A DNA stretch of 64,000 nucleotides from NCBI RefSeq assembly GCF_006716355.1, contig NZ_VFOW01000001.1, forward strand, positions 1,116,001 through 1,180,000, read 5' to 3'. Below, piece after piece: positions 24,384 through 38,350 of the stretch (position 1 is the first letter of the stretch; every line of letters starts with the position of its first letter). The translations under genes and the position numbers were made by a program. This DNA comes from Stackebrandtia endophytica (GTDB lineage: Bacteria > Actinomycetota > Actinomycetes > Mycobacteriales > Micromonosporaceae). The notes under the pieces are model-generated. The model searched no databases and was not told the origin of the DNA. It saw nothing but the letters and a program-made list of their open reading frames with translations.

Positions 24384-24576
24384 ATACGTCTCACAGCTCC
24401 TTCGTGTCAAGGCACGTCATTCGTCTTGGAGCTGTCTCGCGGCCGGTCTTCGATCGAAACGCACGGGCTGCCTGCCCGGACGCCACTACCGAGGACCGGA
24501 ACGACAAGACCGCTGTGACGTACCGATTCTTTTCTGTGCACGGTACCCGCGTGTTCCGCCGGGTGACCGCATGATT

Positions 24577-27925: not shown

Positions 27926-28034
27926 ATCGGTCGCGAAGTGTGTGATGGAACTCTATGGCCTGATTCTGTTGAGAATCTTGCGAAACCTTCCGGGTATCTT
28001 CTGATATCGGCGTCGCGATCGGTCACGAAGTGTG
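27926..28034. repeat. 17-bp direct repeats upstream of the first SARP gene
   Basis: ATCGGTCGCGAAGTGTG (27926-27942) and ATCGGTCACGAAGTGTG (28018-28034) differ at one base. They are 92 bp apart, and the second ends 24 bp before the SARP start codon. SARPs bind direct repeats near promoters, so these are candidate operator sites for this or a related regulator, though SARP heptamer repeats are usually more closely spaced. Confidence 0.5.
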
Positions 28035-28058
28035 GACAGGCCGGTCAGAGAGGCAGTC

Positions 28059-31000
28059 ATGCTGATCCGGATACTGGGAACCGTCGAGGTGGCCGCAAGC
28101 GACTCATGGGTGAAGGCGGGTTCACCCAAACAGAACTGCGTGCTCGCCGCGCTTGCCCTGTCGCCCAATAAAAGCCTGAGCATCGATGCGATAGCCAATC
28201 GCGTCTGGGGAATCGATCCGCCGGCCTCGGCTCGCGGGGTGATCTACGGCCACGTCAATCGATTGCGGGAACTGTTGCGGCCGCATCACGGTGTCCGGCT
28301 GGCGAGGGTCACCGGCGGTGGGTATCGGCTCGACATCGCCACCGATCTCGTCGACGCCCTCCACATGAGAGCCGTCCATGACCGCGCCCGGACGGCCGCC
28401 ACCCCTGATGAGGCGTCCCGACTGTGGCGCGAGGTCATCGATCTGTGGCGGGGCGCGGCGTTGTCGGGCGTGTCCGGCGACTGGGCCGACCGCACACGCA
28501 CCGGCTTGGAGCGTTACCGTTCGGCGGCCTACACCGGATACTTCGACGCCGAGCTTCTCGCGGGCCGACACCGCAACATCATCGGTGAACTCGAGGAGCA
28601 GTTGAGCCTCGCACCCGATGACGAAGCCCTGGTCGCCACCCTGATGCTCGCCCTGCATCGGGACGACCGCTCGGCGGAGGCGCTGGAACGCTATGCGACG
28701 CTGCGGGAGAGACTTCGCCGCGAGCGTCAGCGCGAACCGGGCACCACACTGCGGCGACTGCATCGTGAGATCCTGCGTGGTGACCGTGTGCCGTCGACGC
28801 GTGAGCCGACATCGATCACCGAACCGCCGGTCATCTCGTCGAACCGGGTGATTCCCCGGCAGCTGCCGGGTGCCACCGCGAGCTTCACCGGTCGCCGGAT
28901 CGAACTCGCCACCCTGATGTCCAGGTTGAAGTCGCCGCGAGACCGCCCGGTGGTGGTCATCGACGGCATGGCCGGGGTCGGTAAGTCGACATTGGCCACA
29001 CAGGCGACGAATCAACTGATGGACACCTACGTCGATGGACAAATATTCATTGACCTAAACGGATACAGCGATGCCACGGATCCGGTCACCGCACACGGCG
29101 CCCGGTATCGAGTACTGCGGAGCATCGGATTCGCCGTCGAGCACATACCCGCCACAGTGGAACACCGCGCCGAGGTCTATCGTTCGGCGCTGGCCGGGAA
29201 GCGGCTGCTGCTGTTCCTCGACAACGCCGACGACGAGGCACAGGTGGCGCCACTGCTGGCCGGTATCGACGCCGGCGCCGCGGTCATCACCAGCCGGCGG
29301 CGACTCACCATCGACGGGGCGACGCCCATGTCACTGGGGGAATTGACGCATGAGCAGTCTCGCGAGTTGCTACTGGCGGCCGGCGGACCGGGCCGGTTCG
29401 ACCCCTCCGAGGATGCGGCGCTCAACGATCTGGCGACCTGGTGTGGCGGGTTGCCGCTGGCCCTTCGCATCGCGGCGGCACGACTGCGTAGTCGCCCACA
29501 GTGGAGTGTTTCGGACCTGTTGAGTCGGCTGCGCGACGACCACAGCGGAATGGACCACCTGGCGGTGGGACAACGCAGCGTATCGGCCGCCTTGGCGCTG
29601 TCATTGCGGCAACTGACCGATCGGCAGCGGGAACTGCTCATCGGATTGGCCTGGTTCCCCGGCCCCGACCTCACCGACTCGGCCACCGGCGCGGTGTCGG
29701 GGCAACCAGAGGTTCCCACCGCGGCGACCCTGGCCGAGCTCGTCGACGCCAATCTGCTCGAGAACTGCGGGCAGGGCCGTCATCGACTGCACGACCTGGT
29801 GCGCCGGTTCGTCAGAACGACGGCAGCCCCACCCGAGGGCCTGGCCGACCGGGTCGGAACCTGGTACCTCTACAACACCGCGATCGCTCGCGACACCTAC
29901 ATTCCCCAGCCGAAGGGCTTCTCGCTGCCACCACTGCCGGAGACGGTCGACGAGGTCGCCTTCGACGACGACCTGGCGGCACGCCGGTGGTTCATCGCCG
30001 AAGGCGACAACATCGCCGCCGTGATCAGCGAACTCGCACACCGGCGATCCTCGTCGATGGTGTGGCAGCTGTCGGCGGTGACGCTGTGCCACACCATCGT
30101 CAACGGCGATCGCGGCACCACCGACCGTCTGGGCGGCTGGGGGCTGACCGCGGCCGTGAACACCGGGGATCTCGCGGGCGAAGCCGTGTTGCGTCGCAAC
30201 CTCGGCTACCGCGCCTTGATCGACGACGACTGGGACACCGCGCTGGGCCACTTCGAGCCCGGTCTTCGACTGGCTCGCGAAACCGGCAACCAGGCCGTGG
30301 AGTCGATGATCCTGTCGTGGCTGGGGCATCTGCACTATCGGCGCGGGGAGTTGGCTGCGGCCGCGGAGTACGCGTCGATGGAGTGCGCGGTCAATCAGGG
30401 CATCGATCAGCGACGAGAGCTTGACGCGATCAACAATCTCGCGGTGATCACGACGGACCTGGGGCGGTTGACCGATGCGAAGCAGCTGTTGCAGGAGGCT
30501 CTGCCGCGGTTTCAGAGCTTGGACCACCCGGGAGTCGGCACGGCGCTGGGCAATCTCGCCGAAGTCAGCGCCGCACTCGGCGAATTGGAGGCGGCACTGC
30601 GCTATGAGGACGATGCGGAGCCACACCTGGTCGGGGACACCGATCAGGTGGCGGCGCTGCTGCGGCGTTCGCAGGTTCACCGTTGGCTCGGTGACCGGAA
30701 CACCGCTCTCGGGTTGGCGTTGCGGGCACTGCGGCTGACCTCCGATTCCGCAGTGACACAGCTGCGCGCGACGGCGTTGACCCAAGCCGCCGCGGCCTGC
30801 GACGACCCCGATTCGGCCGCCCGCTACGCACGCGAATCCATTGAAGCAGCCGAGCTGTTGTCCGATGTGGCCGCAATGACGCTGGGACACCTTCGGTTGG
30901 CGGAAGCACTATTGGAGGCCGGAAACACGGCGGAAGCGGGTCGTGAACTCGAACTGGCCGAATTGACGGCGGCAGAAACGGGGCGAGAGCCGCTACGGGC

Positions 31001-31277
31001 ACGCGTGGCCATCGGCATCGCACGGCTTCGACTCGTCACCGATGCGGTGGCGGCCGAATCCGTTCTGCGCGACGCACTCGACACCCTTGACCACTGTGGC
31101 CACCGACCGTGGTTCGCCGCGGGCCACCTGGTGTTGACCGAGATCCACGACACCACCGGCGACACCGAGTCACTGGCACGGCAGCTTGAACTCACCACGG
31201 CGTTGTTCACGGCAATGGGTTCGACACCGATCATCGAATCGGTACGCCGTCGCCCGGCCCCGGTGTCGACCGCCTGA
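28059..31277 (+). CDS. AfsR-like SARP-family regulator with NB-ARC and TPR domains (copy 1)
   Basis: This 1,072-residue large SARP regulator has an OmpR-like winged helix at about 1-90 (MLIRILGTVEV, SPKQNCVLAALAL) and a bacterial transcriptional activation domain at about 95-245. An NB-ARC ATPase follows with Walker A GMAGVGKST and Walker B-like LLLFLDNADD, plus GGLPLALRIAAARL. Helical TPR-type repeats run from about 660 to the end. Such proteins activate secondary-metabolite or morphological genes, ATP binding gating DNA binding. ATG 28059 is chosen with AGAGAGG just upstream. Its paralogue follows 271 bp downstream on the same strand. No biosynthetic cluster is adjacent, so the targets are elsewhere. 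Confidence 0.93.
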   Translation: MLIRILGTVEVAASDSWVKAGSPKQNCVLAALALSPNKSLSIDAIANRVWGIDPPASARGVIYGHVNRLRELLRPHHGVRLARVTGGGYRLDIATDLVDALHMRAVHDRARTAATPDEASRLWREVIDLWRGAALSGVSGDWADRTRTGLERYRSAAYTGYFDAELLAGRHRNIIGELEEQLSLAPDDEALVATLMLALHRDDRSAEALERYATLRERLRRERQREPGTTLRRLHREILRGDRVPSTREPTSITEPPVISSNRVIPRQLPGATASFTGRRIELATLMSRLKSPRDRPVVVIDGMAGVGKSTLATQATNQLMDTYVDGQIFIDLNGYSDATDPVTAHGARYRVLRSIGFAVEHIPATVEHRAEVYRSALAGKRLLLFLDNADDEAQVAPLLAGIDAGAAVITSRRRLTIDGATPMSLGELTHEQSRELLLAAGGPGRFDPSEDAALNDLATWCGGLPLALRIAAARLRSRPQWSVSDLLSRLRDDHSGMDHLAVGQRSVSAALALSLRQLTDRQRELLIGLAWFPGPDLTDSATGAVSGQPEVPTAATLAELVDANLLENCGQGRHRLHDLVRRFVRTTAAPPEGLADRVGTWYLYNTAIARDTYIPQPKGFSLPPLPETVDEVAFDDDLAARRWFIAEGDNIAAVISELAHRRSSSMVWQLSAVTLCHTIVNGDRGTTDRLGGWGLTAAVNTGDLAGEAVLRRNLGYRALIDDDWDTALGHFEPGLRLARETGNQAVESMILSWLGHLHYRRGELAAAAEYASMECAVNQGIDQRRELDAINNLAVITTDLGRLTDAKQLLQEALPRFQSLDHPGVGTALGNLAEVSAALGELEAALRYEDDAEPHLVGDTDQVAALLRRSQVHRWLGDRNTALGLALRALRLTSDSAVTQLRATALTQAAAACDDPDSAARYARESIEAAELLSDVAAMTLGHLRLAEALLEAGNTAEAGRELELAELTAAETGREPLRARVAIGIARLRLVTDAVAAESVLRDALDTLDHCGHRPWFAAGHLVLTEIHDTTGDTESLARQLELTTALFTAMGSTPIIESVRRRPAPVSTA

Positions 31278-31288
31278 TCCCGTAGGTC

Positions 31289-31552
31289 ATGCGTGTGAAT
31301 ACCGTGGAGCGGATCGGAATGCCCAGGTGGGCGACCGACGATGACGGCATGCGCCACCACCGCGAAGCGGCTGAGAACACTGCCAACCCGGTACCGGCTC
31401 CTCCGCATCGTCGTGCCGATGCCATATCCCCCAACCCCATGCCGCCAAACCCCATGTCACCGACAACCTCGCATCCAACACCACAGCGCAACACCAACAC
31501 GTCGGAACCCGTGCGGGTTCACCACACGGGCCCAAGGTCTGGACCATCATGA
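31289..31552 (+). CDS. Doubtful 87-codon ORF in A/C-rich leader of the second SARP gene
   Basis: An ORF (MRVNTVERIGMPRW to HTGPRSGPS) fills the gap between the two SARP genes and its TGA overlaps the second SARP start as ATGA. The sequence is A/C-rich and low in secondary structure, with NPMPPNPM-like repeats, and no domain is seen. It may be a translated leader coupling into the SARP gene, or chance. An inverted repeat GAACCCG-TG-CGGGTTC lies at 31505-31520. Confidence 0.25.
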   Translation: MRVNTVERIGMPRWATDDDGMRHHREAAENTANPVPAPPHRRADAISPNPMPPNPMSPTTSHPTPQRNTNTSEPVRVHHTGPRSGPS

Positions 31553-34500
31553 TAATTCGCATTCTCGGCGGCGTTGAGATCCACAATGGTGACCGCTGGG
31601 TCAAAGCCGGCACCCCCAAACAGCAATGTGTTCTGGCGTCCCTGTCGATGGCGGCGGGCAAGTCCGTCACCCTGGAGGATCTGGCACATCGGGTCTGGGG
31701 AGGCTCCCCACCCCGCAGTACGCGCGGAATCCTGTACGGCCACATCACCCGGCTGCGTGATCTCCTCAAGGCCCATCCGTCGGTGACGCTGTCCCGCGCC
31801 AACACCGACGGCTACCGTCTCGACGTCACCGCGTGCGAGGTCGACGTCTTCCACATGCGTGACCTGGTCGAACAGGCGCGCGGTGCGGCTGTCAACGGTG
31901 ACCACGCCGAAGCGGCGCAGCGGTGGCGAGCCGCTTTGGACCAGTGGCACGGCACCCCGCTGTCCGGTGTGGCCGGAGATTGGGCCGACCGGGTGCGTGC
32001 CGGGCTGGCGGCTGAACGGTTGGCGGTACTGGTCGGCCTCTTCGAAGCGGAGTTGGAACTCGGACACCACCACGAGAACCTCCATGACCTGGAGGTCGCC
32101 GCCCGGGCTCATCCACAGGCCGAAGTCCTCACCGGGCTTCTGATGACCGCGCTGTACCGCTGCGACCGCGCCGGTGACGCGCTGGATCGATACCGGCGGT
32201 TGAGTGACCGACTGCGAGGCAGCCTGGGGCACGAACCCGGACCCGGACTTCGTCGGCTGCATCAGCGCATTCTGCGCAACGACACCGGGCTGTACCGGTC
32301 CGTCGGCGGTTCCCGGGAGGAATCGGCGTCTCCGCGCGGCCCCGACGTTCGGCCGGAGACCGATTCACCGGTGAAGTCATTGAAACAGTTGCCCGCCACC
32401 AGTCCCGCCTTCACCGGGCGCGACGGAGAGTTGGCGAGGCTGACCGGGTGGTTGCGTCGAGCTGCCGAGCCGGCCGTGTCGGTAGCTTCGGTGTCCATCA
32501 TCGACGGTATGCCCGGCGTCGGCAAGACGGCGCTGGCCGTGCACGCGGCCGCAGCCGCCGTCGCGCACTACCCCGAGGGCCAGATCTTCATCGACCTGCA
32601 CGGATACAGCGCCGGACTGTCCCCCATCGATCCGCAGGATGTGATGCATCGCGTCTTGACCAGCCTCGGGACCCCGGCAAACGCGATACCGGAACCGGGC
32701 GAGCAACGTGCCGCCGCCTACCGCAGCGCCTTGGCCGATCACCGCATGCTGTTGGTGTTCGACAACGTCTTCGACGAGGCACAACTGCGTCCGTTGTTGC
32801 CAGGCCTGAGTGGCTGCGCCGTGCTGGCGACCAGCCGCCGTCGCATGGTCGACATCGACGACGTGGTGCCGGTGGCGCTGGGACCGCTGGACCGCGTCGA
32901 GGCGATCCGACTGTTCACCTGCATTCGCGGGGTCGAACGGACTCCTGCCGACGACGCCGTACTGACGGAGATCGTTGACCTGTGTGGACAGTTGCCGTTG
33001 GCGATTCGCATCGCCGCCGCCCGACTCCGCCAACGTCCCCACTGGACCCTGACATCACTGCGCGACAAGCTGTCTGATGAGGACCGTCGCCTCAGTGAAC
33101 TCTCCTCCGGTGAACGCGGTGTCGAGATGTCGATGCGAGTGTCCTTCCGCCACCTGCCGAGTGACCAACAGCGGCTGTTCCGCCGTCTCGGCCGGTTCCC
33201 GGGGCCGGACTTCACCGCCGCGGCGGTCGGTGCCATCGATGATCCGGTCGGGGCCGAACCACTGCTGGAGGAGCTCGTCGACGTCAACCTGATCGAGGCG
33301 CCCAGGCCCGGCCGCTACCGAATGCACGACCTGGTCAAGGTGTTCGTTCAGGACCTGGCCGTCGACGACGACCTGGAGTCGCGGCTGCACGCCTGGTACC
33401 TGTACCGCTCCTATTCGGCCGGCGAGCAGTTCAACGAGATGAGCCGCGCGTTCACCCTGCCGCCGCCACCGGCCGACCTCGACGTCGCGATCGCCGACAG
33501 CACCACGGGACGAGCCTGGTTCACCGAGGAGTACGCCAACCTATTGGCCGTGATCTCGGCCGCCCGGCGACGCGGCGACGAGACCACCGCCTGGCAACTC
33601 GCGGTTCTGGTCAGCACTCATTTCTGCGACGTCGGTGACCGGCACCGGTTGCGCCGCGCCGTCGAGGTGGGGATGCCGGCGGCGCGAAGCGACGAGCACC
33701 TCGACGCGCAGGCGACCCTGCACCTTCACCTGGGGTATGCGGTCTCGTTGGGAGACGACGCGGAAACCGCGATCCCCCACTACCGCGAAGCCGTCGAGGT
33801 GGCCCGCGAAGCGGACAACGCCCTGGTGGAGGCCATGGCGTTGCGACGAATCGGATTCTTCTACTACGGCCAGGGGCGGCTGGAGGAGTCGATGCGTTTC
33901 CTACGCCGGGAGGAACAGGTCAGCGGACGACTGTCGCCGGCGCAACAGGACGGTTCCCGCGACGCCATCGCGGTCGTGGCGATGGACCTGGGGCTGCTCG
34001 TCGAGGCCAGGGACCGCTGGGAGGAGATGCTGGAACGCCTCAAGGAACGCCGGGACGGCAAGGCGACCCTGCTGGGGAATCTCGCACTGGTTCATGCGCG
34101 ACTGGGTGAATTCGACCTCGCCTGGCAACGGGAAGCCGAACACGACCGCATCCTCGACCGCACCGGCGGCGGGGAGTTCGAGCAGATGCTCGGCCTCGCT
34201 CGAAAGTCCTATATGCACACCATGGCTGAGAACCACGACGCCGCAAGGGATGCCGCCGTCGCCGCTGGCAAACTCATCGAGGCTGCCGACTTGACCGCCT
34301 ATCGCCCGGTGTACCTGGTCGCGCTGGCCGCCTCCTGGGACGGCAACCCCGAAGCCGCGGAGACGGCCGCACGCCAGGCGATCAAGGCCGCCGACCAGAC
34401 CGGCAACCAGACCGCACTCACCCGCGCCAACGCGATCCTGGCCACCGCGCTGACCGAGCGGCGCTCACCGGTAGCCGCGATGTCCGCGGCCGAAACCGCG

Positions 34501-34806
34501 TTGTCACACGCCCGCCGAACCGGACACAAACTCGCCCAAGCCGAGGCGTACATCGCGGCGGCCCGCGTTCACGCGGCGATCGACGACCTCACCGAGGCCG
34601 TCCGACTGGCAACCACGGGCCTGACCATTCAATCCATCGCGCAACACCGTCCGGGGCAGGCGATCACGCACACGTTGCTGGCGGATCTGAGCGATCGACT
34701 GGGCGACACCACGACGACGCGACGGCATCGGGAAGCGGCCGTCGAGCTGTACACCTTCATGGGCAACCGTCACGCCGTGACGCGGCTGACGGCGCCCCAC
34801 CGGTGA
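31549..34806 (+). CDS. AfsR-like SARP-family regulator with NB-ARC and TPR domains (copy 2)
   Basis: This 1,085-residue paralogue of the preceding SARP shares MIIRILGGVEI, WVKAGTPKQQCVLASL and RGILYGHITRLRDLL with copy 1's equivalents. It has the winged helix (1-90), activation domain (95-240), NB-ARC with GMPGVGKTAL and LLVFDNVFDEAQL, then TPR-like repeats from about 660. The ATG 31549 ribosome site is weak (AAGG 11 nt upstream). Head-to-tail placement with similar length and domain order indicates tandem duplication followed by divergence. It ends 24 nt before the metG leader peptide start. Confidence 0.93.
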   Translation: MIIRILGGVEIHNGDRWVKAGTPKQQCVLASLSMAAGKSVTLEDLAHRVWGGSPPRSTRGILYGHITRLRDLLKAHPSVTLSRANTDGYRLDVTACEVDVFHMRDLVEQARGAAVNGDHAEAAQRWRAALDQWHGTPLSGVAGDWADRVRAGLAAERLAVLVGLFEAELELGHHHENLHDLEVAARAHPQAEVLTGLLMTALYRCDRAGDALDRYRRLSDRLRGSLGHEPGPGLRRLHQRILRNDTGLYRSVGGSREESASPRGPDVRPETDSPVKSLKQLPATSPAFTGRDGELARLTGWLRRAAEPAVSVASVSIIDGMPGVGKTALAVHAAAAAVAHYPEGQIFIDLHGYSAGLSPIDPQDVMHRVLTSLGTPANAIPEPGEQRAAAYRSALADHRMLLVFDNVFDEAQLRPLLPGLSGCAVLATSRRRMVDIDDVVPVALGPLDRVEAIRLFTCIRGVERTPADDAVLTEIVDLCGQLPLAIRIAAARLRQRPHWTLTSLRDKLSDEDRRLSELSSGERGVEMSMRVSFRHLPSDQQRLFRRLGRFPGPDFTAAAVGAIDDPVGAEPLLEELVDVNLIEAPRPGRYRMHDLVKVFVQDLAVDDDLESRLHAWYLYRSYSAGEQFNEMSRAFTLPPPPADLDVAIADSTTGRAWFTEEYANLLAVISAARRRGDETTAWQLAVLVSTHFCDVGDRHRLRRAVEVGMPAARSDEHLDAQATLHLHLGYAVSLGDDAETAIPHYREAVEVAREADNALVEAMALRRIGFFYYGQGRLEESMRFLRREEQVSGRLSPAQQDGSRDAIAVVAMDLGLLVEARDRWEEMLERLKERRDGKATLLGNLALVHARLGEFDLAWQREAEHDRILDRTGGGEFEQMLGLARKSYMHTMAENHDAARDAAVAAGKLIEAADLTAYRPVYLVALAASWDGNPEAAETAARQAIKAADQTGNQTALTRANAILATALTERRSPVAAMSAAETALSHARRTGHKLAQAEAYIAAARVHAAIDDLTEAVRLATTGLTIQSIAQHRPGQAITHTLLADLSDRLGDTTTTRRHREAAVELYTFMGNRHAVTRLTAPHR

Positions 34807-34817
34807 CGACCGCCTGT

Positions 34818-34823
34818 TAGGCT
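34818..34823 (+). promoter_or_regulatory. -10 element of the metG leader transcript
   Basis: TAGGCT, a strong actinomycete -10, ends 7 nt before the leader ATG at 34831. Transcription would therefore begin at or one base before that ATG, making the leader mRNA leaderless. No good -35 is seen upstream in the tail of the SARP gene. Confidence 0.6.
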
Positions 34824-34830
34824 TTGCCGC

Positions 34831-34869
34831 ATGTGTCAGCACCTCACCAACATGATGGCCCCGCCATAG
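34831..34869 (+). CDS. Predicted metG leader peptide with Met-Met
   Basis: This 12-codon ORF encodes MCQHLTNMMAPP and ends in TAG. Two consecutive internal Met codons (34852-34857) sit before the stop, upstream of a methionyl-tRNA synthetase gene, the logic of a starvation-sensing leader peptide. It starts right at the predicted transcription start, and leaderless attenuator peptides are known in actinobacteria. The peptide is short enough for Met-Met to arise by chance; the adjacent alternative RNA helices raise the likelihood. Confidence 0.6.
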   Translation: MCQHLTNMMAPP

Positions 34870-34951
34870 GGGTGCCAGCACACGTGTCAGTGCCCCGGTT
34901 CCGGGGCGGCAGCAGCTGACGGATTCGCCCCGGCAACCATTCGCCGGAAGG
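34869..34951 (+). promoter_or_regulatory. Candidate translational attenuator controlling metG
   Basis: Five segments compete. GGGGTGC (34869-34875) can pair with GTGCCCC (34890-34896). GCCCCG (34892-34897) can instead pair with CGGGGC (34902-34907). CCGGGGC (34901-34907) can pair with GCCCCGG (34927-34933). CCGGC (34930-34934) can instead pair with GCCGG (34943-34947), which covers part of the metG ribosome site GGAAGG (34946-34951). A ribosome paused on Met-Met leaves 34869-34875 free, shifting the chain so that the ribosome site opens; one at the stop codon masks it. The CCCCGGCAACC string also recalls SAM-I/SAM-IV riboswitches, but the other conserved parts are not evident. Read by eye. 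Confidence 0.55.
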
Positions 34952-34958
34952 TAATCCA

Positions 34959-36458
34959 TTGTCTCGTTTCTACATCACCACCGCGATTCCCTATGTCAAC
35001 TCCACACCGCACATCGGTTTCGCGTTGGAGCTAGTGCAGGCCGACGCGTTGGCCCGCCATCGACGCCATCGTGGCGATCAGGTCCGCTTCCTCACCGGTA
35101 CCGACGACAACTCGCTGAAGAACGTTCAAGCCGCACAGGCCGAGGGCATCGACACCGGCGAGTTGGTCACGCGCAACGCCGGGCACTTCGAAGCACTGCG
35201 CGGACCGTTCGAGCTGTCGTTCGACGATTTCATCCGCACCGGTTCCGACCCCCGGCACGCGCCGGGTGCGGCACGGCTGTGGGATGCCGCCGTCACCGCC
35301 GGCGACCTATACAAACAGCCCTACCGGGGCCGCTACTGCGTCGGTTGCGAACAGTTCTACTCCGATGACGAACTGATCGACGGCCGCTGTCCCGAACACG
35401 GCACCATTCCGCAACCGGTCGAGGAGGACAACTGGTTCTTCCGATTGTCACGGTATGCCGGGCGACTGCGAGAACTGATCGCCTCGGACACGGTGCGCAT
35501 TCGTCCGGAGGTCCGCCGAAACGAGGTACTCGGGTTCATCGACAGTGGACTGAGCGATTTCAGCGTGTCACGGTCGGCCGAACGCTCCCACGGTTGGGGT
35601 GTACCGGTTCCCGGTGACCCGTCTCAGGTCATGTACGTGTGGTTCGACGCGTTGAGCAACTACATCACCGCCCTCGACTACGCCACGACCGGTGAGGCGT
35701 TCCAGCGCTGGTGGAGCGACGCCGACCAGCGGGTACATGTCATCGGCAAGGGCATCATCCGGTTCCACGCGGTCTACTGGCTCGCGATGCTGCTGTCGGC
35801 CGGGCTTCGGCTGCCGTCGCAGATCCTGGTGCACGACTACCTCACCGCCGGTGGCCGAAAGATCGGCAAGTCGCTGGGCAACTCCGTTGATCCGGTGGCC
35901 CTGGTCGAGCAGTACGGCGGCGACGCGGTCCGATGGTGGCTGTTGCGGGAGGTTCCACCGGTCGGAGATACCGACTTCACGGTCGACCGACTGGTCAATC
36001 GAGCCAATGAGGATCTCGCGAACGGACTGGGCAACCTGGTCAACCGGGTCACATCGATGGTTCACAAGTACCGGGCCGGACGGGTTCCCCCGCTCGACGA
36101 CCAGGCCCGGGAACGGTTGCGCGCCACCGAGGACCGGGTCGCCGAAGCAGTGGACCGGGCGATGGCCGACTACGACCTTCGGGGTGCGGCATCCGCGGTG
36201 TGGGAACCGGTGGACGAGGCCAACCGGTTCGTACAGGACTCCCGTCCGTGGGAACTGGCCAAGGCCGAACGTGCCGGTGACGCGGAGGCCGGCCGCCGGC
36301 TGGACGAGGTGCTGGCGCGGCTGGTGGCCGACTGCCGATTGGTCGGGCGGGAACTGCGCCCATTCCTGCCGCACCTGGCCGAACAGGTGACCGCCGCCTG
36401 CACCGGCGACCCGCTGCCCACCGCCACGCCGGTTTTCCCTCGATTGGGGGTTGATTGA
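34959..36458 (+). CDS. metG: Methionyl-tRNA synthetase
   Basis: This 499-residue class I enzyme charges tRNA-Met. It has the HIGH-type motif PHIG (residues 18-21) and a zinc-knuckle-like CVGCEQFY with CPEHG. WFDALSNYITAL and the KMSKS-type KIGKSLGN follow, then the helical anticodon-binding domain. The start is TTG 34959, 7 nt after GGAAGG, an unusual weak start consistent with leader-controlled translation. It stands between a SARP regulator and nhaA rather than in the usual metG neighbourhood, so it may be a second, possibly inhibitor-tolerant copy; this cannot be decided from one window. Confidence 0.94.
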   Translation: MSRFYITTAIPYVNSTPHIGFALELVQADALARHRRHRGDQVRFLTGTDDNSLKNVQAAQAEGIDTGELVTRNAGHFEALRGPFELSFDDFIRTGSDPRHAPGAARLWDAAVTAGDLYKQPYRGRYCVGCEQFYSDDELIDGRCPEHGTIPQPVEEDNWFFRLSRYAGRLRELIASDTVRIRPEVRRNEVLGFIDSGLSDFSVSRSAERSHGWGVPVPGDPSQVMYVWFDALSNYITALDYATTGEAFQRWWSDADQRVHVIGKGIIRFHAVYWLAMLLSAGLRLPSQILVHDYLTAGGRKIGKSLGNSVDPVALVEQYGGDAVRWWLLREVPPVGDTDFTVDRLVNRANEDLANGLGNLVNRVTSMVHKYRAGRVPPLDDQARERLRATEDRVAEAVDRAMADYDLRGAASAVWEPVDEANRFVQDSRPWELAKAERAGDAEAGRRLDEVLARLVADCRLVGRELRPFLPHLAEQVTAACTGDPLPTATPVFPRLGVD

Positions 36459-36508: not shown

Positions 36509-38350
36509 GTGAACCGGGCCAGATCTCAAACCGTCCGTCGACACCTCAACGGACAGCTGTCGGCACCGTTGCGCGCCTACCTTCGCACCGAGGCCGGTGG
36601 AGCCGCGCTGCTGCTGGGGGCCGCGGTGATCGCGCTGATCTGGGCGAACTCGCCATGGTCGGACAGCTACGTCGAACTGTGGCACACACGCGGCATCGTC
36701 GAATTCGGCGCGCTGGGTTTCGACATGTCGTTCGGGCATTGGGTCAACGACGGTCTGATGGTGGTGTTCTTCTTCGTCATCGGGCTGGAGGTGCGTCGAG
36801 AATGGTCGATGGGTGAACTCACCGATCGACAACGGGCGATCCTGCCGCTGGTGGCGGGCGTGGGCGGCATGGTCGTCCCGGTGGCGCTGTACCTGTTGAT
36901 CAGTCCCGGTGGTGAAGCCTCCGCCGGTTGGGGCGTGGTCATCGGCACCGACACCGCCTTCCTGTTGGGTGCCTTGGCCTTGGTGGGCCCCGCCTGCTCC
37001 ACGCAACTGCGGATCTTCTTGTTGACACTGACGGTGGTCGACGACCTGGTCGCCGTGAGCGTCATCGGATTCGCCTACTCCGAATCCCTGGACCTGGGTT
37101 CACTGGCCGTGGCACTGTTGTGCCTGGTCTTCCTGGTGCTGTTCGACCGGTTCGGAGTCTGGCGCTCCTGGCCCTACATCGTGGTCGTGGTTATTCTGTG
37201 GGCGGCCACCGTCGCCTCCGGGGTGCACCCGTCGATCGCCGGCATGGCGGCCGGCCTGTTGATCCCGGCCTACGCCGCCCGGCGGCAGGAGGTCGAGGGT
37301 GCGGCCCAACTGTTCGCCGCGTTCCGGCAGTCGCCGCAACCGTCGGTGGGCTACGACGCCAAAACCGGGCTGGCCCGGGCGGTCTCGGTCAACGAACGGT
37401 TGCAGGTGGTGCTGCACCCGTGGACCAGTTACCTCGTGGTGCCGATCTTCGCGTTGGCCAACGCCGGGGTGGATCTGCGCGACGGAGTGCTTCAAGACGC
37501 GCTGACCTCACCGGTCACGTGGGCGGTGGTCGTCGGCCTGGTGGTGGGAAAGACGATCGGCATCGGCGTCGCGACGCTCGGCGGACAACGACTCGGCATG
37601 GGGCGACTGCCAACCGGGGTCGCACCCGGCCACGTCGTCGGGGGCGCCGCGCTGTCGGGCATCGGTTTCACGGTCTCACTGTTGATCGTGGAACTGGCCT
37701 TCGGCGACAGCGTCGTCGGTGACGAGGCACGCGTCGGAGTGTTGCTGGCGGCGGTGCTCGCCGTGTTGTTGGGCGCCGTCGTCTTCCAGATCGCCGCACG
37801 ATTCCGAGGCGAGACCTCGGCGAGTCTGCCGATGGTGCTGGACCGACCGGTCGACCCGGAGACCGACCACATTCGAGGTCCGGTGGACGCCCCGCTGACG
37901 CTGGTCGAGTACGGGGACTTCGAATGTCCGTTCTGTGCCCGCGCCACCGGGGTGACCCGGGAACTGCGTGACCATTTCGGAGACCGGTTGCGATACGTGT
38001 TCCGGCATCTCACGCTGCCGGAGGTGCATCCGCACGCCGAGTTGGCCGCGCAGGCCGCCGAAGCAGCCGGGAAGCAGGGACGATTCTGGGAGATGCACGA
38101 CCTGTTGTTCGAACGGCAGGACCGACTGGAACCAGCCGATCTGGCCGGCTACGCCGTCGATCTGGGCCTCGACCTCGAACAGTTCCTCGATGACATCAAC
38201 GATCCCGAGACCGTCCATAAAGTACATGCTGACGTGGCCAGCGCCGAGAACAGCGGCGCACGAGGAACTCCCACCTTCTTCATCGGAGACCGCCGCCACC
38301 TGGGTGCCCATGACACTCAAAGCCTGATCGCCGCATTGTCCGGCCGTTAG
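36509..38350 (+). CDS. nhaA: Na+/H+ antiporter NhaA fused to a DsbA-like thioredoxin domain
   Basis: This 613-residue protein carries an NhaA antiporter at about 1-430: [42 protein letters not shown] with the transport Asp pair, and [11 protein letters not shown]. The C-terminal DsbA/thioredoxin domain (about 440-613) has [15 protein letters not shown] with a CPFC active site and GTPTFFIG with the cis-Pro loop. It exchanges Na+ for H+ across the membrane. NhaA-thioredoxin fusions are known in actinobacteria; the thioredoxin role is not established. GTG 36509 is the start. It lies 50 bp after metG and may be read from the same transcript. Confidence 0.94.

Follow-up and report, generated by a model that had tools for sequence, protein, structure and literature searches.

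A probable methionine leader-peptide attenuator preceding an additional methionyl-tRNA synthetase gene of actinomycetes

What is the role of a 12-codon reading frame with two adjacent methionine codons that lies directly in front of a gene for a methionyl-tRNA synthetase (MetRS)? The question is raised by metG of Stackebrandtia endophytica, which we analysed within a stretch of 64,000 nucleotides, referred to below as the window. Our answer is that the DNA preceding metG probably encodes an attenuator through which ribosomes gauge methionyl-tRNA and regulate this gene, which specifies the second MetRS of the genome. The metG gene (34959..36458, plus strand, as are all leader parts below) starts with TTG and encodes 499 aa scoring above the cut-off for both PF09334 and TIGR00398. 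The leader lies between its start and the end (34806) of a gene for an AfsR-like regulator. Two such regulators (BTAD, NB-ARC, TPR) are adjacent upstream of metG, at 28032-31277 and 31549-34806.

A preliminary description of this DNA proposed a -10 element, a spacing of 7 nt and a 12-codon ORF with tandem Met codons, and direct reading of the letters bore this out. The -10-like hexamer TAGGCT (34818..34823) lies 7 nt 5' of the ATG (34831) of MCQHLTNMMAPP (34831..34869), the TAG stop of which ends at 34869; among the window letters no -35 box stands out upstream of TAGGCT. The ORF is predicted to be leaderless, and its tandem Met codons (34852..34857), conserved in relatives, form the presumed stall site. 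Directly 3' of them lies arm 1, GCCCC (34858..34862), which a ribosome stalled there is predicted to cover. This arm was absent from the preliminary description and can hold arm 2, GGGGTGC (34869..34875), when the RNA is free of ribosomes; arm 2 can otherwise pair with the leader's own 34839-34845 in the ribosome-free state, or else with arm 3. Arm 3, GTGCCCCG (34890..34897), is followed by arm 4, CCGGGGCG (34901..34908, including CCGGGGC at 34901-34907), the partner of which is arm 3 or arm 5, and by arm 5, CGCCCCGG (34926..34933, including GCCCCGG at 34927-34933), which pairs with arm 4 or partly with arm 6. The GCCGG stretch at 34943-34947 is complementary to GCCCCGG at 34927-34933. The five stretches originally listed are thus all present, each complementary to its neighbour, and they end at the metG ribosome site. 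Here arms 5 and 6, together with a GGATT/AATCC extension, form the closing hairpin (34921..34957) of the minimum-energy fold over the SD-like GGAAGG (34946..34951), 7 nt 5' of the TTG at 34959.

The leader had been taken for a sensor with which a MetRS gene controls itself. The domain matches identify metG as a MetRS gene, but it is not the only one in the genome: another MetRS of 600 aa (C1:2277186-2278985) shares 34% identity with it over the main aligned part. The gene for this housekeeping enzyme begins 6 nt behind a -10-like TAGGAT. No such leader was seen in front of it, and an RNA model built from 61 leaders matches a single place in the window genome. The leader therefore belongs to the additional MetRS copy and not to the housekeeping gene.

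To what extent is the leader conserved? We assembled 117 metG upstream regions, comprising 79 from the family (all matches), 29 of 35 further ones from the class, 5 from the order and 4 of 80 wider loci. A leader was called on an xAxxxT hexamer with an allowed gap of 5-9 nt (the one nearest 6.5 being preferred), an internal Met and an end before metG. A short leader ORF 6-8 nt behind xAxxxT, with an internal Met and ending before metG, was found in 98 of the 117 loci (65/79 within the family), and a TANNNT or xAxxxT hexamer at similar distance in as many (98/117). The 19 leaderless loci, L015 and 18 others, all encode proteins with at most 58% identity to that of the window. Of the 117 upstream regions, 55 passed a strict criterion (tandem internal Met in an ORF of 8-35 codons that starts with ATG or GTG 6-7 nt after TANNNT), all of them among 99 kin and none among 18 others, a split made post hoc with the letters already seen.

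The Met codons and their frame are conserved as well, answering one of the refuting conditions that the preliminary description had named. At all 53 testable loci, those with a strict -10 and a start that could be set irrespective of frame, ATGATG shares the frame of the predicted leaderless start. The second Met codon is ATG in 83/98 leaders, the first being ATG in all of them by construction of the site choice; 14/98 leaders contain just one internal Met, and of the 1746 leader residues 216 are internal Met. Typical peptides are MIFSSCQVMMPRSRGC and MQPRRESMMRPFPGLLAVR and, in another family, MSTTRVAAEAASRRMMLMPMPSGLLRAS. In Met-rich peptides the Met residues are constant and the intervening ones vary (H, L, P, R, S, Y, F), a pattern that speaks for selection on the Met codons. 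At a distance of exactly 36 nt from the first Met, the stop is TGA in 29 leaders, TAG in 17 and TAA in 4. Since three different codons occupy one position, it is the stop itself that is conserved and not its letters. As in ribosome-mediated leader-peptide attenuators, these leaders have a short upstream ORF, predicted to be translated, whose codons match the amino acid of the gene that it would regulate.

Since GC-rich DNA folds easily and stretches of C and G make up many of the individual arms, we considered whether a chance ORF might merely be accompanied by GC-rich hairpins. Thirty dinucleotide-shuffled sets of the 99 kin yielded no region passing the strict criterion, which, with the frame agreement at 53/53 loci, rules out a chance ORF. 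Conservation in 98/117 loci, together with the helix specificity and the 500 shuffles described below, leaves coincidence with a negligible probability.

The preliminary description further envisaged a chain of mutually exclusive helices. Using 27 leaders thinned by similarity, we set the duplex energies of arms from one and the same leader against those of arms exchanged between leaders. This comparison was adopted because a sequence-only alignment with consensus folding yielded just 7 pairs, 2 with changes on both sides, a poor yield probably caused by arms shifted by indels. Helices 1:2 (z -3.7), 3:4 (z -10.5), 4:5 (z -4.1) and 5:6 (z -6.6) were specific to their own leaders, and none of 5000 permutations, which ignore phylogeny, equalled any of them. 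Six control pairings (1:4, 2:5, 2:6, 3:5, 3:6 and 4:6) gave z between -1.0 and +1.3. Although the 2:3 duplex is strong, it showed no specificity in the 27 thinned leaders (z +1.0), as expected of invariant GGGG/CCCC. Four links of the chain are accordingly specific in relatives, but helix 2:3 is a prediction that covariation leaves unproven. We also determined whether the stretch behind the edge of a stalled ribosome competes with 3:4 more than its own shuffles do. This was the case for 74/97 leaders, which fell below the shuffle median (z -5.3), and for 22/27 in the thinned set (z -2.5). By type, competition was evident in 27/29 short and 16/17 SGL leaders, and was not significant in the long type (31/51, z -1.3).

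Does a stall on the Met codons alter access to the metG ribosome site? We folded the RNA lying free in front of the ribosome and calculated the cost of opening the SD to the start codon, an equilibrium treatment that ignores co-transcriptional order. In the window this cost was 9.6 kcal/mol with arm 1 free, 4.1 kcal/mol when the A site holds a Met codon and 10.2 kcal/mol with the ribosome at the stop. The prediction that the site opens upon a Met-Met stall and closes upon completion of the peptide was thereby reproduced, and none of 500 shuffles dipped as far. Within reach of a leader ribosome, the cost was low only for front edges between about +8 and +18 nt, counted from the first Met codon, where the edge of a stalled ribosome is expected. 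A second low, at +42 to +46, lies past the stop and beyond any leader ribosome; a ribosome with its edge there would mask arm 3. In the stalled state the minimum-energy fold still keeps the SD hairpin and just the opening cost drops, so our claim concerns relative cost.

The window belongs to the short type, of which 23/29 leaders dip, with a mean of 1.84 vs -0.77 in shuffles (highest of 60 set means, -0.26); in the thinned set 9/13 dip. Other types behave differently. In the long type 28/51 leaders were positive in the stall-vs-stop comparison, the mean of 0.51 lying below the highest shuffle mean (0.58), and in the Met-rich SGL type the effect ran in the opposite direction (3/17 positive, mean -2.26). 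A single SD switch for all leaders is ruled out by the flat long type and the opposite SGL type. Taken together, the folding models support a predicted stall-to-SD relay for the type to which the window belongs, not for all leaders.

The conserved ORF, its frame and Met codons, helices 1:2, 3:4, 4:5 and 5:6, and the opening computed for the window support the following model, for which we infer the start site, leader translation, stalling, helix 2:3 and an output by translation rather than termination in this species. Transcription would start at or beside the leader ATG, and a ribosome would load on the leaderless end and read MCQHLTN-Met-Met. When methionyl-tRNA is short, the ribosome would stall with a Met codon in the A site and its front over arm 1. 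With arm 1 covered, helices 2:3 and 4:5 would form, which would free the SD from 5:6 and allow metG to be translated. When methionyl-tRNA is plentiful, the ribosome would reach the stop codon and cover arm 2, whereupon 3:4 would form and 5:6 would bury the SD, so that metG would stay off. In RNA free of ribosomes the leader itself would hold arm 2, and the metG site would be closed too.

The same Met stall could instead act by classical transcription attenuation, with 3:4 serving as a terminator (intrinsic, U-poor or Rho-helped) and read-through as the output. In the relative G030 (L234) hairpin 3:4 of the same leader is followed by eight T, apparently a true intrinsic terminator, behind which a GGAGCC..GGTTCC hairpin lies at an SD. 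A few further leaders have 4-6 T in the 8 nt behind 3:4, and SGL leaders favour 2:3 over 3:4 while SD opening is not favoured in them. However, hairpin 3:4 of the window lacks the T run of an intrinsic terminator, and the T count in the 8 nt after 3:4 averages 2.1 over 97 leaders; moreover, covariation in the SD hairpin 5:6 and specificity of 4:5 are features that a terminator alone would not need. For the window we therefore regard transcription attenuation as unlikely. Because folding was flat or opposite in the long and SGL types, and G030 has its eight-T terminator, control may in some lineages be exerted on transcription; our reading is of one sensor whose output differs between lineages. 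The translational attenuation put forward initially is largely supported, for the window by the predicted SD opening, but the long and SGL types do not fit it.

Is methionyl-tRNA the signal? An arrest peptide or a leader responding to a ribosome-targeting drug would sense something else, and antibiotic-sensing leader uORFs exist, according to the accessible part of one report (PMC12121999). In the present leaders, however, the residues before the Met codons vary widely, the Met clusters persist and the downstream gene encodes a MetRS, making another signal very unlikely. A riboswitch or T-box, for which translation of the leader would be unneeded, is more improbable still. No Rfam family reached its gathering score in the window leader, and a search up to E 5 gave a single weak match there (E 0.93, opposite strand); a known RNA family was rejected on these searches. 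T-boxes specifically were absent from the window at gathering score and from 34600-35100 up to E 5, and the leader's frame and stop are conserved. The only Rfam match at gathering score in the window is an Actino-pnp RNA (RF01688) at 24442-24500 on the minus strand.

T-boxes do precede two homologous metG genes from other lineages, a Rubrobacter MAG (L027:2709-2954, E 1.4e-12) and a Thermomicrobiales MAG (L029:2691-2948, E 3.6e-17). Both score below the Rfam gathering score and were for this reason missed by the search at that threshold. Each has AUG at the presumed specifier position. Outside the class searched, candidate Met-clustered uORFs within 300 nt upstream of metG occur in alphaproteobacterial loci (L037, L038, L074) and in Gemmatimonadota/Latescibacterota (L057, L062, L064), and 5 of these 6 have a terminator-like hairpin with a T run. 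In Desertimonas (L078), MFELTTSVMMRPLPGPVLLAH lies behind TAGACT upstream of metG. Because the 80 wider loci were scanned with a loose uORF criterion that also catches AT-rich genomes, the Chloroflexi matches L030 and L033 are leads only.

How is the leader distributed? Of 354 family genomes, 76 gave a match to the RNA model at E <= 0.01, at one place each, and 68 did so at E <= 1.5e-5, the remaining 8 lying at E 7.6e-4 or worse; since 10 candidates were scored per genome under strict filters, weak copies elsewhere could be missed. This metG was found in 78/354 family genomes at E <= 1e-140, and 65 of the 68 leaders precede a gene of that set (coordinates compared by eye). The others lie before decayed metG remnants in G089 and G096 (L230, L231) and before a stretch without visible metG in G364 (L232). 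In the four other genomes of the same genus this metG had no match even at 1e-100. A housekeeping-like MetRS is also present in 33 of 40 tested leader-metG genomes, a set that includes G046, in which no leader was recognised. It is missing from G450, G463, G476 and G498, where another PF09334 match is present, and from G059, G413 and G554; because the latter have no other PF09334 gene, the leader-type metG seems to be their only MetRS.

A conserved neighbourhood was rejected: among loci longer than 3,000 nt, AfsR-like neighbours occur only in the window's own locus. An NhaA antiporter fused to a thioredoxin/DsbA-like domain lies at 36509-38350 of the window, and outside it an NhaA neighbour occurs, among loci longer than 3,000 nt, only in two Kutzneria loci that have no such leader. 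We tentatively advance the doubtful but possible idea that metG and its sensor constitute a mobile, self-contained back-up cassette. It would move between actinomycetes as a unit beside the housekeeping MetRS and stay silent until charging by the housekeeping enzyme fails, for example through a MetRS-inhibiting natural product. It would be switched by a translational helix relay rather than a terminator, the metG lineage having swapped tRNA sensors (T-box vs leader peptide) for the same signal. The findings suggest that the second MetRS which many actinomycetes retain may serve them as an inducible reserve.

With leaders at 98/117 loci, and a window copy that matches no Rfam family, methionine joins the amino acids whose actinobacterial synthetase genes are apparently under leader-peptide attenuation, and the system lends itself to a clean test of whether attenuation of this kind can operate at the level of translation. 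The preliminary description knew of no actinobacterial example with such a peptide; nor did we find a Met leader before metG described in the open literature, outside which most subscription papers lie. The kind of attenuator is known, and its conserved methionine member before metG is apparently undescribed. Vecchione and Sello are said to have shown in 2010 that an auxiliary tryptophanyl-tRNA synthetase gene of Streptomyces coelicolor is under transcriptional attenuation. The present system resembles that one in that an additional synthetase gene would be governed by ribosome stalling on codons of its own amino acid, and differs from it in sensing Met and in its predicted SD relay, as opposed to Trp and transcriptional attenuation. 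T-box leaders likewise sense the tRNA charging of a synthetase, but do so by direct tRNA binding, and the window has no T-box match; the actinobacterial ileS T-box has an SD hairpin as its output, as stated in the accessible part of a 2005 survey (PMC1262725). In that part, the survey predicts leaders before trpS and leuS in Streptomyces and gives nothing conserved before methionine operons. The accessible text of a study of S. lividans predicts leaders before leuS, trpS, alaS, thrS and metNIQ (PMC8079986). As far as these portions of the two sources go (PMC1262725, PMC8079986), the leaders are like ours in being short, mostly leaderless and endowed with codons matching the amino acid of the downstream gene, and unlike ours in that none precedes metG; the metL peptide before metNIQ in S. 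lividans has scattered Met codons, unlike the window leader (PMC8079986). Mycobacterial cysteine-rich uORFs, which ribosome profiling indicates are translated and for which control has been proposed, are a further case of short reading frames in actinobacteria that are enriched in the amino acid to be sensed; they differ in that the amino acid is Cys, other genes follow and, in the part of the paper available, no helix chain is described (PMC4633059).
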